DNA of 44,358 nt, from positions 1 to 44,358 of the forward strand of contig JAOPZF010000235.1 of assembly GCA_025964255.1 (NCBI GenBank), written 5' to 3'. Position numbers and translations under genes: made by a program. Source of the stretch: Solirubrobacterales bacterium. GTDB lineage: Bacteria > Actinomycetota > Thermoleophilia > Solirubrobacterales > 70-9. Positions 29,395 through 34,535 of this stretch are shown here, one piece after another. The stretch's first letter is position 1. Each line of letters opens with the position of its first letter. The notes under the pieces are model-generated. The model was not told the origin of the DNA. It ran no database searches and saw only the letters and a list, made by a program, of their open reading frames with translations.

Positions 29395-30258
29395 ATGCTG
29401 GCGCTGGGGATCATCTGCGCGATCGGGGCCTCGGCGCTCTACAACACCTCGATCGCTCTGCAGGCGCTCGAGGCGAGGGACGTGGGGGAGGAGCACGCGC
29501 TGCGGGTGTCGCTGATCGGGCGGCTGATCAAGAACCCGCGGTGGCTGTTGGCAACCGGGATCGGGTTGCTCGGGTGGCCGCTGGAGATCGCGGCGCTTCT
29601 GTTGGCACCACTGACCGTCGTCCAGCCGTGCCTCGCCTGTGGGCTCGTGCTGTTGCTCTGGCTCGGGGTGACGCGACTGGGGGAGAAGCCGGGCCGGCGC
29701 GAGTACGGCGCCGTCGCGGCGATCCTGGTGGGGGTCGCGGGGCTCGCCTGGGCGGCGCCCGAACGGACGACCGGCCACGCCGGGGCCGGGCCGATCGCGA
29801 TCGCATTGGTGCTGGTGACGATCCCGGTTGTCGCTCCTTACGTGGTGCGCGGATGGGCTAGCGCAGCCGGGACGCTGGCCGTCATCGCAGCGGGCTTCGG
29901 CTACGCCTGGACGGCGATCGCCTCGAAGCTCCTCACCGACCAGCTCTCGACGGGCTCGATCTTCGTCGCCGCGATCTGGCTCGCCACCGCCGCCGCCTCC
30001 GAGGGCCTCGCCCTGCTCAGCGAGATGAGCGCCCTGGGGAGGAGCCCGGCGACCCGGGTCGCGCCGGTGATGTTCGCGATCCAGGTGACCGTTCCGGTGA
30101 TCCTGGCGCCGCTGATCTTCGAGGAGTCGTGGTCGGACACGCCGGGCGGCGGCGCGGGCATCGTCGCCTCGGTCCTCCTCGTCCTCGCCGGGGTCGTCGC
30201 CCTGGCCGGATCGCCGGTGGTCGGCGCGGTAATCGACAGCGCTCACGCGGAAGAGTGA
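29395..30258 (+). CDS. DMT/NIPA-like membrane transporter
   Basis: Integral membrane protein of 287 residues with about nine hydrophobic segments. The start MLALGIICAIGASALYNTSI (small residues then N-T/S) and GWPLEIAALLLAPLTVVQP resemble DMT-superfamily proteins of the NIPA/DUF-type group, which are proposed cation or metabolite carriers. Charged loops (EARDVGEEHALR, RLGEKPGRRE) are short. It has no signal peptide; the first helix acts as the anchor. It appears to be a single gene with its own -10 box. The substrate is unknown and the family call is moderate. Confidence 0.72.
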   Translation: MLALGIICAIGASALYNTSIALQALEARDVGEEHALRVSLIGRLIKNPRWLLATGIGLLGWPLEIAALLLAPLTVVQPCLACGLVLLLWLGVTRLGEKPGRREYGAVAAILVGVAGLAWAAPERTTGHAGAGPIAIALVLVTIPVVAPYVVRGWASAAGTLAVIAAGFGYAWTAIASKLLTDQLSTGSIFVAAIWLATAAASEGLALLSEMSALGRSPATRVAPVMFAIQVTVPVILAPLIFEESWSDTPGGGAGIVASVLLVLAGVVALAGSPVVGAVIDSAHAEE

Positions 30259-30476
30259 TCCGGTCGATACAAACTCGGAGCGTCCAGGATCGCGGGTACG
30301 CTCGTCCCCTAAATGAGGCTTCTTTAAACGTTCTCCTCCGGTTACGCTGGTAGCCTGACGCCGCTTTCGGCGACGAATCCACTTGTTTCACGCCGAAACT
30401 GTTTCCACAGACTCCGTTTCCCGCACACCCCCAGAAGGAGTTAGCCGTAGGCGCCGCAGAGACATCCCTGCCCGAC
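30259..30476 (+). promoter_or_regulatory. 218-bp AT-richer leader before the glycolipid cluster
   Basis: No gene is seen here. The segment is less GC-rich than its surroundings and contains CGCCG-CTTT-CGGCG (30359-30372), a compact hairpin, a weaker CTGT-ttcc-ACAG, and AGAAGGAG at 30433-30440, which is too far (36 bases) from the GTG at 30477 to serve it. A TTTAAAC stretch near 30323 may be part of a promoter. It probably holds the promoter and a structured 5' leader. Confidence 0.4.
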
Positions 30477-31481
30477 GTGACCAAATTCGCGATCGGCTTC
30501 GATCATCGTGATCGTCCCCGCCTCTTCGAGCTCTGGACCGAGGTGCTCGATTCCGAGCAGTGGTCCGAGGGCAAGAAGCTCGCCGCCTTCGAGGACCGCT
30601 GGGAAGAGTGGAACAAGCTCCCGAGCGTCGGCCTCTCCAGCTGGGCCGGTGGTGCGCTCGCGGCGCTCGAGTTCGCCGGCGTCAAAGGCGAGACGGTCCT
30701 CTGCCCGTCGAACACCTTCATGGCGACGCCGCTCGCCGCGATCGGCGCGGGCGCCAACGTCGAGTTCGTCGACTGCCGCAAAGACGACCTCTGCATGTCC
30801 TTCGAGGACTTCGAGCGCAAGGCGGAGAAGTTCAAGCCGCGGGCGGCGATCCTGGTCCACGTCGGCGGCCACCTCTCATTTGACGCTAAGGAGATCGCCG
30901 CATACTGCCGGGACCATGGGATCTTCCTGCTTGAGGACTGCGCCCACGCCCACGGCGCCGACTGGGACGGCGAGCGCCCCGGCAGCTTCGGCGACGCCGG
31001 CGTCTACTCGCTCTACGCGACCAAGACGATCTCCAGCGGCGAGGGCGGCGTGCTCGTCTCCTCCAACGAGGACCTCATCGAGTACACCCGTAAGTTCCGC
31101 AACTACGGCAAGTTCGATCACCAGGTCGACGGCCTCAACTTCCGGATGAACGAGTTCACCGCGGCGCTGGCGCTGGTCGGGGCCGAGCGGATGGAGGAGA
31201 TCGTCGCCTGGAAGAACGACTTCGCCGGCGAGCACCTCGACCCGCAGTACCCGGCCCGCCTGGCGCTCCCCGAGGGGATGACCTCAGGCCTCTACAAGTA
31301 CATCGTCTTCGACGAGATCGAGAAGAGCACCGGCAAGGTCTACGACCAGCCTTGCCACCGGATCATGGGCCGCTCCGACGAGCTGCCCAACACCGACTGG
31401 GTGGCCGAGAACCATTGGTGCGTGCCGCTCTACTATCGCCCGGAGAGCCGCGCCGCGGCCCTATCCGGGGAGGGGGAGTGA
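30477..31481 (+). CDS. DegT/DnrJ/EryC1-family sugar aminotransferase
   Basis: PLP-dependent aminotransferase of the type that aminates keto-sugars on nucleotide carriers. Lys183 in YATKTISSGEGG is the expected PLP lysine; the preceding EDCAHAHGADWDG and SFGDAGVYSLYATK blocks and NFRMNEFTAALALVGAERM are family hallmarks. At 334 residues it is somewhat shorter than ArnB-type enzymes (~380), with the C-terminal part trimmed. GTG at 30477 is the first start before FAIGFDHRDRP. It ends one base before the epimerase-glycosyltransferase fusion, with AGGGGGAG serving that gene. Substrate is inferred to be an NDP-4-keto or 3-keto sugar formed by the dehydratase half of its neighbour. Confidence 0.88.
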   Translation: MTKFAIGFDHRDRPRLFELWTEVLDSEQWSEGKKLAAFEDRWEEWNKLPSVGLSSWAGGALAALEFAGVKGETVLCPSNTFMATPLAAIGAGANVEFVDCRKDDLCMSFEDFERKAEKFKPRAAILVHVGGHLSFDAKEIAAYCRDHGIFLLEDCAHAHGADWDGERPGSFGDAGVYSLYATKTISSGEGGVLVSSNEDLIEYTRKFRNYGKFDHQVDGLNFRMNEFTAALALVGAERMEEIVAWKNDFAGEHLDPQYPARLALPEGMTSGLYKYIVFDEIEKSTGKVYDQPCHRIMGRSDELPNTDWVAENHWCVPLYYRPESRAAALSGEGE

Positions 31482-31482
31482 G

Positions 31483-33825
31483 ATGAGGGTCCTGGTCACC
31501 GGCGGTGGCGGCTTCATCGGCTCCCACGTCGTCGACAAGCTGATCGCCAAGGGAGTGACGCCACGGATCTTCGATCTGAGCGCCTCGCCCTACCACTCGC
31601 CGCTCGAGGTCGAGACCTTCACCGGTTCGATCACCGACCCCGGCAACCTCGACCTGGCGATGCGCGAATGCGACGCTGTCATCCATCTCGCCGCGGTCGC
31701 CGACGTCGGCCACGTGCTCGCCGACCCGGTGCTCGCCGAGGAGGTCAACACGCGCGGCACCCTGCAGGTGCTGGAGGCGGCCTGCCGGGCGAAAGTCGGC
31801 CGCGTCGTCTACGGCTCGACCACCTGGGTCTACAGCGACTGCCCCGAGCAGGAGGTCGATGAGGAAACCGCGATCCCCGCGCCGCGCCACCTCTACACCT
31901 CGACCAAGCTCGCGGGCGAGACCTACTGCGCGAGCTACTCGGAGCTCTACGACCTCGACTTCACGATCCTGCGCTTCGGCATCCCGTACGGCCCGCGCGC
32001 CCGCGCCGCCGGCGTCGTCGCCAAATTCACCGACCTCTCCTTCGAAGGCAAAGCGCTGACGATCGCCGGCGACGGCAGCACCACCCGCAGCTTCATCTAC
32101 GTCGAGGACCTCGCCGACGGGATCGTCGCCGCGCTCGCCCCGCAGGCGTCAGGCCGCACCTACAACCTCTCCGGCGACGAGATCACGACGATCCTCGAAA
32201 TCGCCGAGCGCGTGCAGGAAAACGTCGACACCTGCGAGATCACCCACACGCCGCCGCGCCCCGGCGACTTCCCGGGCAAGTCGATCTCCAACAAGCGCGC
32301 CCTCGAGGAGCTTGGCTGGAAAGCGGATACGCCCTTCAAGGACGGCGTCCGCCAGTACGTCGAATGGGTCAAGTGCACGACCCGCCCGCCGGACCCGATC
32401 CCCGGCACGAAGCCCTCGATGAACGGCAACGACCGCGCCGCCGGGGCGCTGCTCGCGGGTGCCTCGCGGCCGGGCGAGCCGCGTGAGCCGCGGGTCCTGA
32501 TCCTCTCCGCCGACATCGGCGAGGGGCACGATCTGCCGGCGCGGATGATCAAGGCCGACCTCGAAAAAGAAGTTCCCGGCACCGAAGTGAAAATCGAGAA
32601 CGGTCTCGAGGCGATGGGCAAGCTTTCGGCGACGGTGCTGCGCAACGGTTCGAAAATCGTCTTCCGCTGGGCGCCTTGGATCTTCGACATCCAGTACTGG
32701 CTGATCACGAAGTTCGCCCCGACCCGCTGGCTCTTCCAATACCTCGGTTACCTCTTCGCCGGTCGCGGCGTGCTGCGCGCGGTCGAGTCCTACGACCCGG
32801 ACGTCGTCATCTCGACCTACCCGGGCGTCACCGCGATCCTCGGGATGCTGCGCGAGAGGCGCCGACTCAGCGTTCCGGTGCAGTCGGCGATCACCGACCT
32901 CGCCGGCCTGCGCTACTGGGCGCACCCGGGCGTCGACCTCCATTACGTCACCCACCCCGAGTCGATCGAGGAAGTCGAGCGGCTGGTCGGGCCAGGGACG
33001 GTCGAGTGGGCGCGACCGCCGATATCGCCGGAGTTCCTCGCCCCGCGCACCCGCCGTGACGCCCGCGAGGCGCTCGGCGTCAACGCCCACGCGCGCATGG
33101 TGCTGGTCTCCGGCGGTGGCTGGGGAGTGGGGGACCTGGAGACGGCGATCGAGCTGGCGCTCGACGACGGCGAGACCGAGGTGGTCTGCATCGCGGGCCG
33201 GAATGAGATCGCTCAGCGGAAGCTCGAAGCGCGCTTCGGCGACAACCCGCGGGTCCGCGTGCTCGGCTTCACCGACCAGATGAGCGACTGGATGGCGGCC
33301 GCCGACGCGATGGTCCACGCGACCGGGGGCCTGACCGTGCTCGAGGCTCATATCCGCGGCTGCCCGGTGATCTCCTACGGATTCTCGGCCGGCCACCTGC
33401 GCGCCAACAACGCCGCCTTCGAACGGTTCGGGATCGCCGAGGTGGCGCGCTCCGACCACGAGCTCGAGTCGACCCTCCGCCACGTCACCGCCGAACGGCG
33501 CTCGCCGGACTCCTCCTTTGCCTCGTTGCCATCGATCGCCTCTCGGGCGCTCACGGTGCGGCCGCGGGTGCGCCAAGAGCCGGTCTGGCGGCTACGGACG
33601 GCGCGCGCCGTCGCGGTCACCTGCCTGGCGATCATCGCCATCGTCCTGGTGATCTCGGCGGTCCACCGCGAGAGCCCGCTGAGGCCGCTCCACCCGGTGA
33701 CCAGCCGGATCCATTTCGGCACGGATAGCGACGCGACGCAGGCGGCGCAGAGCCTCGGCCCGACCGAATCCTCGCGCGCCGTCGCTGCCGAAACTGCCGC
33801 GGCCGAAGAAGAATCCGGGCATTGA
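31483..33825 (+). CDS. Fusion: NDP-sugar epimerase/dehydratase + MGDG-synthase-like glycosyltransferase + TM helix
   Basis: A 780-residue multidomain protein. Residues 1-305 are an extended SDR: NAD site TGGGGFIGSH (about 6-15) and catalytic Tyr138 and Lys142 in YTSTK, with GDGSTTRSFIYVEDLADGIV in the sugar-binding half. A linker (about 306-335) is followed by a GT-B enzyme of the MGDG synthase/MurG type (about 336-670): SADIGEGHDLPARMIKADL acceptor region, then VSGGGWGVGDLE and HATGGLTVLEAHIRGCPVIS as the donor site. One hydrophobic helix lies near 706-726 (AVAVTCLAIIAIVLVISAV) and a ~55-residue polar tail follows. There is no stop or frameshift at the joint; an internal ATG at codon 313 could give the glycosyltransferase alone. 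The stop overlaps the deacetylase start. It would make and transfer an unusual sugar onto diacylglycerol or a similar lipid at the membrane. Confidence 0.88.
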   Translation: MRVLVTGGGGFIGSHVVDKLIAKGVTPRIFDLSASPYHSPLEVETFTGSITDPGNLDLAMRECDAVIHLAAVADVGHVLADPVLAEEVNTRGTLQVLEAACRAKVGRVVYGSTTWVYSDCPEQEVDEETAIPAPRHLYTSTKLAGETYCASYSELYDLDFTILRFGIPYGPRARAAGVVAKFTDLSFEGKALTIAGDGSTTRSFIYVEDLADGIVAALAPQASGRTYNLSGDEITTILEIAERVQENVDTCEITHTPPRPGDFPGKSISNKRALEELGWKADTPFKDGVRQYVEWVKCTTRPPDPIPGTKPSMNGNDRAAGALLAGASRPGEPREPRVLILSADIGEGHDLPARMIKADLEKEVPGTEVKIENGLEAMGKLSATVLRNGSKIVFRWAPWIFDIQYWLITKFAPTRWLFQYLGYLFAGRGVLRAVESYDPDVVISTYPGVTAILGMLRERRRLSVPVQSAITDLAGLRYWAHPGVDLHYVTHPESIEEVERLVGPGTVEWARPPISPEFLAPRTRRDAREALGVNAHARMVLVSGGGWGVGDLETAIELALDDGETEVVCIAGRNEIAQRKLEARFGDNPRVRVLGFTDQMSDWMAAADAMVHATGGLTVLEAHIRGCPVISYGFSAGHLRANNAAFERFGIAEVARSDHELESTLRHVTAERRSPDSSFASLPSIASRALTVRPRVRQEPVWRLRTARAVAVTCLAIIAIVLVISAVHRESPLRPLHPVTSRIHFGTDSDATQAAQSLGPTESSRAVAAETAAAEEESGH

Positions 33826-34535
33826 GCGCCGAGCGGCGCCTTGCCGGTGCGGGGGCGCTCGCCCTCGCGGTGGCGGTGCCGCACGCGGGCCCGGCGCTGG
33901 CGCCGATTGTTCCCGCGGTCGGTCGCCGGCTCCCGGTCGTCTTGCGCGAAGAGGAGGTCGAAGGTGTCTTCCTCACCTTCGACGATGGCCCGCACCCGCA
34001 GGGCACCCCGGCGGTCTTGGAGATCCTCCGCGAGGCGGGGCAGACGGCAACGTTCTTCCTCGCCGGCGAGCAGGTCGAGCAGCGCCCCACACTGGCAGCG
34101 GAGATCGTCGCGGCCGGCCATCGGGTGGAGCTCCATTGCCACCGCCACCGCAACCAATTGCGGCTGACCCCGCGGGCGCTGCTCGACGACGCCGAACGCG
34201 GTCGGGCGGCGATCGAGGAGGCGAGCGGCCAGGAGATCGCCGACTATCGGCCGCCCTACGGGATCTTCAGCGGCGTCGGGCTGGCCGCGATCCGCTCACG
34301 CGGCTGGCGGCCGGTGCTCTGGTCGCAGTGGGGGAGAGACTGGACGCGCCGCGCCACCGCGGCGTCGATCACCCGCAAGGCGACCGACCGAGTCCGCCCC
34401 GGGGACATCGTCCTTTTGCACGACGCGGACTTCTACAGCGCGCGGAACTCTTGGGAGCGCACCGTGTCAGCTCTGCCGAGGATTCTCGAGGAGCTCACGA
34501 CGCGAGGGCTGAAGTCGAGCGTGCTTCGCCGTTGA
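33822..34535 (+). CDS. Membrane-anchored polysaccharide deacetylase (NodB domain)
   Basis: CE4 carbohydrate esterase that removes N-acetyl groups from sugars, here probably outside the membrane. A short hydrophobic N-terminus (about residues 7-30, LAGAGALALAVAVPHAGPAL) is a signal anchor. Motif 1 TFDDGPHP has the catalytic base and metal Asp; motif 2 HCHRH gives the two metal histidines in H-x-x-x-H spacing; motif 3 YRPPYG follows; LLHDADFYS near the end is motif 5 with His. TTG 33822 overlaps the fusion gene's stop (TTGA). The neighbouring glycosyltransferase suggests the target is a glycolipid sugar rather than peptidoglycan (inference). Confidence 0.87.
   Translation: MSAERRLAGAGALALAVAVPHAGPALAPIVPAVGRRLPVVLREEEVEGVFLTFDDGPHPQGTPAVLEILREAGQTATFFLAGEQVEQRPTLAAEIVAAGHRVELHCHRHRNQLRLTPRALLDDAERGRAAIEEASGQEIADYRPPYGIFSGVGLAAIRSRGWRPVLWSQWGRDWTRRATAASITRKATDRVRPGDIVLLHDADFYSARNSWERTVSALPRILEELTTRGLKSSVLRR

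Follow-up and report, generated by a model that had tools for sequence, protein, structure and literature searches.

What would a cell make with a single polypeptide that joins a sugar-nucleotide enzyme to a glycosyltransferase of the kind that builds membrane glycolipids? The question is raised by a locus in contig JAOPZF010000235.1 (44,358 nucleotides, here called the window), part of the 4.0-Mb genome assembly of a Solirubrobacterales bacterium, a soil-type actinobacterium (GCA_025964255.1; G000). On one strand of the window lie the genes for a DegT aminotransferase (AT), for a 780-amino-acid fusion of an extended short-chain dehydrogenase/reductase (SDR), a GT28-type glycosyltransferase (GT) and a transmembrane (TM) helix, and for a NodB deacetylase. 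Together with a DMT-like transporter gene they belong to a module of five genes (DMT, AT, SDR, GT and NodB) in the class Thermoleophilia. With moderate confidence, we propose that this is an envelope module for making an N-deacetylated amino-sugar membrane glycolipid. The donor, the acceptor and the product, as well as the flipping and the sidedness of the reactions, are what we infer from the parts described below.

The fusion and its gene set

The features of the locus are as follows.

29395-30258, + strand: DMT-superfamily-like multi-helix transporter, candidate flippase (linked in congeners and other families; weak DMT_1 match)
30477-31481, + strand: DegT/DnrJ/EryC1/StrS aminotransferase (Pfam; Lys183 and EDCAHAHG motif intact)
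31483-32382, + strand: extended SDR half of the fusion, residues 1-300 (GGxGFIGSH, Asp31, Ser112-Thr113, Tyr138, Lys142; STxWVY without the dehydratase/decarboxylase acid)
32383-32475, + strand: in-frame linker between SDR and GT, residues about 301-331
32476-33552, + strand: GT28, MGDG-synthase/UgtP-like GT-B half, residues about 332-690 (DIGEGHD, SGGGWGVGD, GGLTVLEA, YGFSAGHLRANN)
33607-33822, + strand: TM helix (residues 709-727, the only one in the fusion) and short tail, a shortened version of the TM helix and domain of about 170 residues at the GT C-terminus of relatives
33822-34535, + strand: NodB-type (CE4) polysaccharide deacetylase (FDDG, HxxxH, RPPYG, WGRDW and LLHD motifs intact; weak N-terminal hydrophobic stretch)

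An earlier note on this DNA had described a cluster of three genes, and their frames, coordinates and spacing are as it claimed: AT ends at 31481, the fusion runs from 31483 to 33825 without a stop after a 1-nt gap, and NodB starts with the TTG at 33822 inside a TTGA overlap. The domain assignments are all significant, with Pfam matches to DegT_DnrJ_EryC1 for AT (E=2e-54), to Epimerase (E=5e-49, residues 3-229), MGDG_synth (6e-13, 353-498) and Glyco_tran_28_C (2e-7, 540-673) on the single fusion chain, and to Polysacc_deac_1 for NodB (E=2e-26). The set of three was incomplete, since the conserved DMT transporter gene also belongs to it.

SDR and GT share a single open frame across the junction in nine genomes of the same genus (78-91% identity, with contig ends or masked N interrupting some of the matches). 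Two other genera also have fusions, whose halves are 53-61% identical (G035 and G029; G235, G195 and G198). The fusion is genuine, and an assembly error is excluded because independent genomes carry the open junction. Many of the relatives' assemblies are metagenome-assembled genomes. No fusion orthologue was found in two genomes of the same genus (G002, G004). In the GT tree, the fused forms fall into one supported group (95/91), which is joined by an adjacent unfused SDR–GT pair from genus g31; the fusion thus arose, to judge by this tree, in one or two events from neighbouring genes. A search of the literature, limited to open-access text, gave no description of an epimerase–GT fusion. AlphaFold models, built on shallow alignments for the fusion and the DMT protein, had mean pLDDT values of 38 and 42 and were too poor for use. 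In the congener G005 the GT tail apparently occurs twice, on contigs C26 and C60 and each time at a contig end (88% and 71% identity).

The cluster is conserved in the same genus, in other genera and in several families. An AT orthologue is present in 24 of 249 Thermoleophilia genomes (63-71% identity outside the genus) and was absent outside this class from a 396-genome sample of the phylum. GT occurs in all 24 AT-bearing genomes and in 32 further ones that lack AT; the Fisher p value for co-occurrence (2.6e-18, uncorrected for relatedness) overstates the association, because the genomes are related. AT never occurs without SDR wherever both are readable, and GT and NodB stand side by side in many genomes, two-gene sets included. 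The DMT-like gene lies directly upstream, beside AT, in every readable congener; in several other families, at 38-53% identity, it is linked to GT, NodB or AT. Where SDR and GT are unfused, AT and SDR are neighbours, with GT, NodB and DMT beside them in changed order and often on the opposite strand; in G054 and G050, SDR is on a separate contig. As AT, SDR, NodB and GT are associated in varied orders and strands, they are kept together beyond operon inheritance.

Stepwise loss within one genus

Genus g33 provides a rare natural test of how the parts depend on one another. Three of its genomes (G235, G195 and G198) have intact NodB–AT–fusion sets. In G176, a one-contig assembly, AT is a relic that joins the N- and C-terminal ends, and in G242 just a C-terminal AT relic is seen. 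The fusions of both genomes are still open (929 and 952 amino acids), with Tyr138/Lys142 of the SDR changed to R/R and R/G, respectively, and Trp115 lost. In G222, both AT and SDR are gone, and the GT starts with MKVRATG, which resembles the first SDR residues. GT and NodB motifs are intact in all three of these genomes, which form a clade nested within AT-bearing ones (100/100 and 96/97). The relics lie beside open downstream genes:

L085, 8131-8330: AT relic
L086, 7785-8080: AT relic
L087, 8811-8980: AT relic, apparently also a relic of the SDR start

Because the deletion of AT coincides with the loss of the SDR Tyr/Lys pair, and SDR deletion then follows, AT and SDR function together as one unit; because GT and NodB stay intact after this loss, the GT–NodB core serves a function independent of them. 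On the comparative evidence, AT and SDR are one optional donor-making unit upon this core, and they stand out as a pair of biochemical interest.

In G176 and G242, a GT that looks active still carries a seemingly dead SDR domain in frame. The ratio of nonsynonymous to synonymous rates (dN/dS) between the two is 0.36 for the SDR half and 0.13 for the GT half, and in three intact pairs the SDR dN is 0.27-0.90 of the GT dN. With dN/dS below 1 in this single pair, the SDR domain, although dead, may remain under structural constraint.

Probable donor, acceptor and product

The SDR has the features of extended SDRs that act on nucleoside diphosphate (NDP) sugars (GGxGFIG, an Asp at the end of beta-2, and Ser/Thr-Tyr-Lys), and the alignments agree with the catalytic Tyr138/Lys142 named earlier. 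Its best profile matches among solved structures are the UDP-GlcNAc epimerase PelX (6wjb/6wj9) and UDP-glucose 4-epimerases. PelX shares the Ser/Tyr/Lys core, but is free-standing and lacks Trp115, which is invariant here. Dehydratases and decarboxylases carry an acid after the Ser/Thr (e.g. STDEVYG). The corresponding STxWVY is invariant in 21 orthologues and has no acidic residue at this position, and with the required acid missing the SDR was rejected as either kind of enzyme. Routes that couple an NDP-sugar 4,6-dehydratase to an aminotransferase (PseB/C, PglF/E, RmlB-based) likewise found no match, as the acid pair was not found in the SDR and no NCBIfam equivalog cut-off was reached. AT has the DegT/DnrJ/EryC1/StrS family profile, the pyridoxal-phosphate lysine Lys183 with the residues around it, and E153/D154, with Lys183 and E153/D154 invariant; its C-terminus is shorter than those of solved relatives, and it fits none of the named NCBIfam equivalogs. 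Unfused orthologous SDRs of other genera (L065, L072, L043, L077, L044 and L074) have 2-5 predicted C-terminal TM helices, so the SDR is attached to the membrane repeatedly and in different ways.

An STxWVY motif without the dehydratase or decarboxylase acid, and a GT–NodB pair that persists without AT, would also suit a HexSDF-like glycolipid with an ordinary sugar: the SDR would be a UDP-GlcNAc 4-epimerase that gives UDP-GalNAc to the fused GT, NodB would turn the product into a galactosaminyl lipid, and AT would serve another step. We consider this unlikely, since the SDR is not independent of AT: the AT-less genomes that retain it have lost its catalytic residues, and AT is never found without it where both can be read. 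Under the amino-sugar glycolipid model that we favour, the SDR would most likely oxidise or epimerise a UDP-HexNAc-type (N-acetylhexosamine) sugar, and AT would then aminate the keto-sugar. Together they would most likely provide the GT with a special amino-sugar donor, passed on through the fusion in this lineage, where donor maker and donor user are joined. A more specific version, which we put forward tentatively, is that an SDR descended from GalE/PelX has turned into a releasing 4-dehydrogenase that feeds keto-NDP-HexNAc to AT, that the fused GT takes the product into a previously unknown di-amino-sugar glycolipid, and that the SDR persists for a while as a dead scaffold after AT is lost.

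The GT half is of the MGDG-synthase/UgtP type with GT-B fold, as proposed before, both by Pfam and by its nearest solved structures, a UgtP-type diacylglycerol glucosyltransferase (9wde, 2e-32) and MGD1 (4wyi, 4e-30). The GxGH and GxT..EA motifs (here GLT.LEA) align with those of UgtP and MGD1, but the donor loop reads YGFSAGHLRANN here and YKPVPGQEKENA in UgtP, and the GT is fused to the SDR. GTs of one AT-less clade have GHA for GHD, GVT for GLT and an altered YG..GH.RANN loop; these differences fit a different donor, and are confounded with phylogeny. NodB has all CE4 motifs, and its nearest solved structures are PgdA-type deacetylases. As these nearest solved relatives act on peptidoglycan and chitin, NodB might instead act on peptidoglycan or a wall polysaccharide, and the GT and the sugar genes would then contribute to a wall polymer and not to a membrane lipid. 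This is very improbable, given that GT and NodB are the conserved core, adjacent in many genomes and even in two-gene sets, that the nearest solved relatives of the GT use diacylglycerol, and that no polymerase or ligase was noticed in the loci read.

The GT–NodB core resembles the amino-sugar glycolipid system HexSDF of Clostridioides difficile, in which HexD is required for N-deacetylation of lipid-linked HexNAc (PMC10128005, PMC11898633). There too, an MGDG-synthase-annotated GT, a NodB-type deacetylase and a predicted flippase form a small gene set, a likeness of HexS and HexD that is drawn from annotation and published function rather than from sequence alignment. HexSDF differs in that it has no aminotransferase, SDR or fusion, in that HexF is MprF-like and the transporter here DMT-like, and in its acceptor, a monohexosyl-diradylglycerol. 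GpgSDF of Pseudomonas aeruginosa (PMC12713373) also combines a GT, a deacetylase and a predicted flippase and makes a glucosaminyl lipid, but with a GT4-type GT, a COG3233 deacetylase, a YbhN-type flippase, phosphatidylglycerol as acceptor and no sugar-nucleotide genes. Mutant lipidomics of both systems show that such sets yield N-deacetylated amino-sugar lipids (PMC10128005, PMC11898633, PMC12713373). Our locus shares with them the GT with intact motifs, here MGDG-synthase-like, and the adjoining deacetylase, whose metal and catalytic motifs are intact, but not a flippase of the MprF/YbhN family: the linked membrane protein is weakly DMT-like (NCBIfam DMT_1, E=0.0025, below cut-off; no Pfam match) and absent in some lineages.

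By analogy with HexS and from its family, the GT, tied to the membrane by its one helix, would transfer the sugar to a glycerolipid; the DMT protein would move the lipid across the membrane; and NodB, with its intact motifs and the precedent of HexD, would strip the N-acyl group to leave a cationic head group. The gene set would thereby carry HexSDF-like logic into an actinobacterial class rich in uncultured members, and add dedicated sugar-nucleotide enzymes to it. The single pathway proposed in the earlier note is supported, although the AT–SDR pairing and the HexSDF precedent had been overlooked. An amino-sugar glycolipid is still the best guess for its product on the HexSDF and GpgSDF precedents, but the amine exposed by NodB need not be the one installed by AT, because the GT–NodB core occurs and persists without AT and SDR.

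The protein classes also recall the Arn pathway for L-Ara4N, which has a DegT aminotransferase, an SDR dehydrogenase, a GT, a NodB-like deacylase and DMT-like flippases, and in which ArnA likewise fuses an SDR with another activity. ArnE/F are DMT proteins and ArnD is NodB-like. By this route, NodB would act like ArnD and remove the N-acyl group from an amino sugar on undecaprenyl phosphate, the DMT protein would do the flipping as ArnE/F do, and the sugar would then be transferred to a cell-wall polymer. Counterparts in class exist here for ArnB, ArnD, ArnE/F and the dehydrogenase domain of ArnA, but in Arn the SDR acts as a decarboxylase and is fused to a formyltransferase, the acceptor is undecaprenyl phosphate and the final target lipid A, whereas here the decarboxylase acid and the formyltransferase domain are missing and the GT belongs to the GT28/MGDG-synthase-like type instead of ArnC's GT2 type. 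Moreover, the NCBIfam Arn models all score below cut-off and no ArnT-like gene was noticed in the loci read, so that we regard an Arn-like pathway as improbable.

Several observations weigh against the glycolipid model itself. The SDR lacks the acid expected of a dehydratase or decarboxylase that releases a keto-sugar. The gene set contains no N-acyltransferase, so the N-acetyl group on which NodB acts is probably one that is already there, and the amine installed by AT may be separate from the one that NodB exposes. The deacetylase motifs of NodB are intact, but the signal anchor ascribed to it is a weakly hydrophobic N-terminal stretch (KD 1.72), and export is not convincing. Most g33 and g31 genomes with AT or a decayed copy have no DMT gene. 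Finally, Solirubrobacter deserti, whose genome was not screened for the cluster, has been reported to have an aminophospholipid and no glycolipid.

Leader, start codon and C-terminal domain

A structured leader had been described ahead of AT. Its folding z-score is +1.23, with 177 of 200 shuffled sequences folding as well, and an Rfam search gave no match even at E 1; these results do not support a riboswitch or an unusually structured leader.

In four congeners (L032, L034, L036 and L082), GCG stands in place of the GTG at 30477, and no ATG, GTG or TTG precedes the invariant FAIGFD motif; L082 has a TAA stop just upstream. This GTG is probably not the true AT start, which probably lies upstream near GTA 30447, 6 nt past AGAAGGAG. 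In the alignment of window positions 30433-30479 with L031, L032, L034, L036 and L082, a purine-rich AAGGAG is found 5-6 nt ahead of this conserved GTA. Because AAGGAG precedes it and no canonical start is conserved, the comparison suggests a non-canonical AT start codon, possibly GUA.

Many GTs of relatives (L041, L064, L070, L073, L076, L085-L087, L091, L093, L094 and L097), and also the unfused SDR L045, end in a TM helix and a conserved domain of about 170 residues that has no Pfam match; the GT in the window retains just the helix and a short tail. The domain aligns weakly and collinearly with NodB, with the NodB metal ligands absent (PDB match 7ax7, E=0.044; hhalign P=0.002, probability 5%), which is suggestive only of a degenerate NodB.
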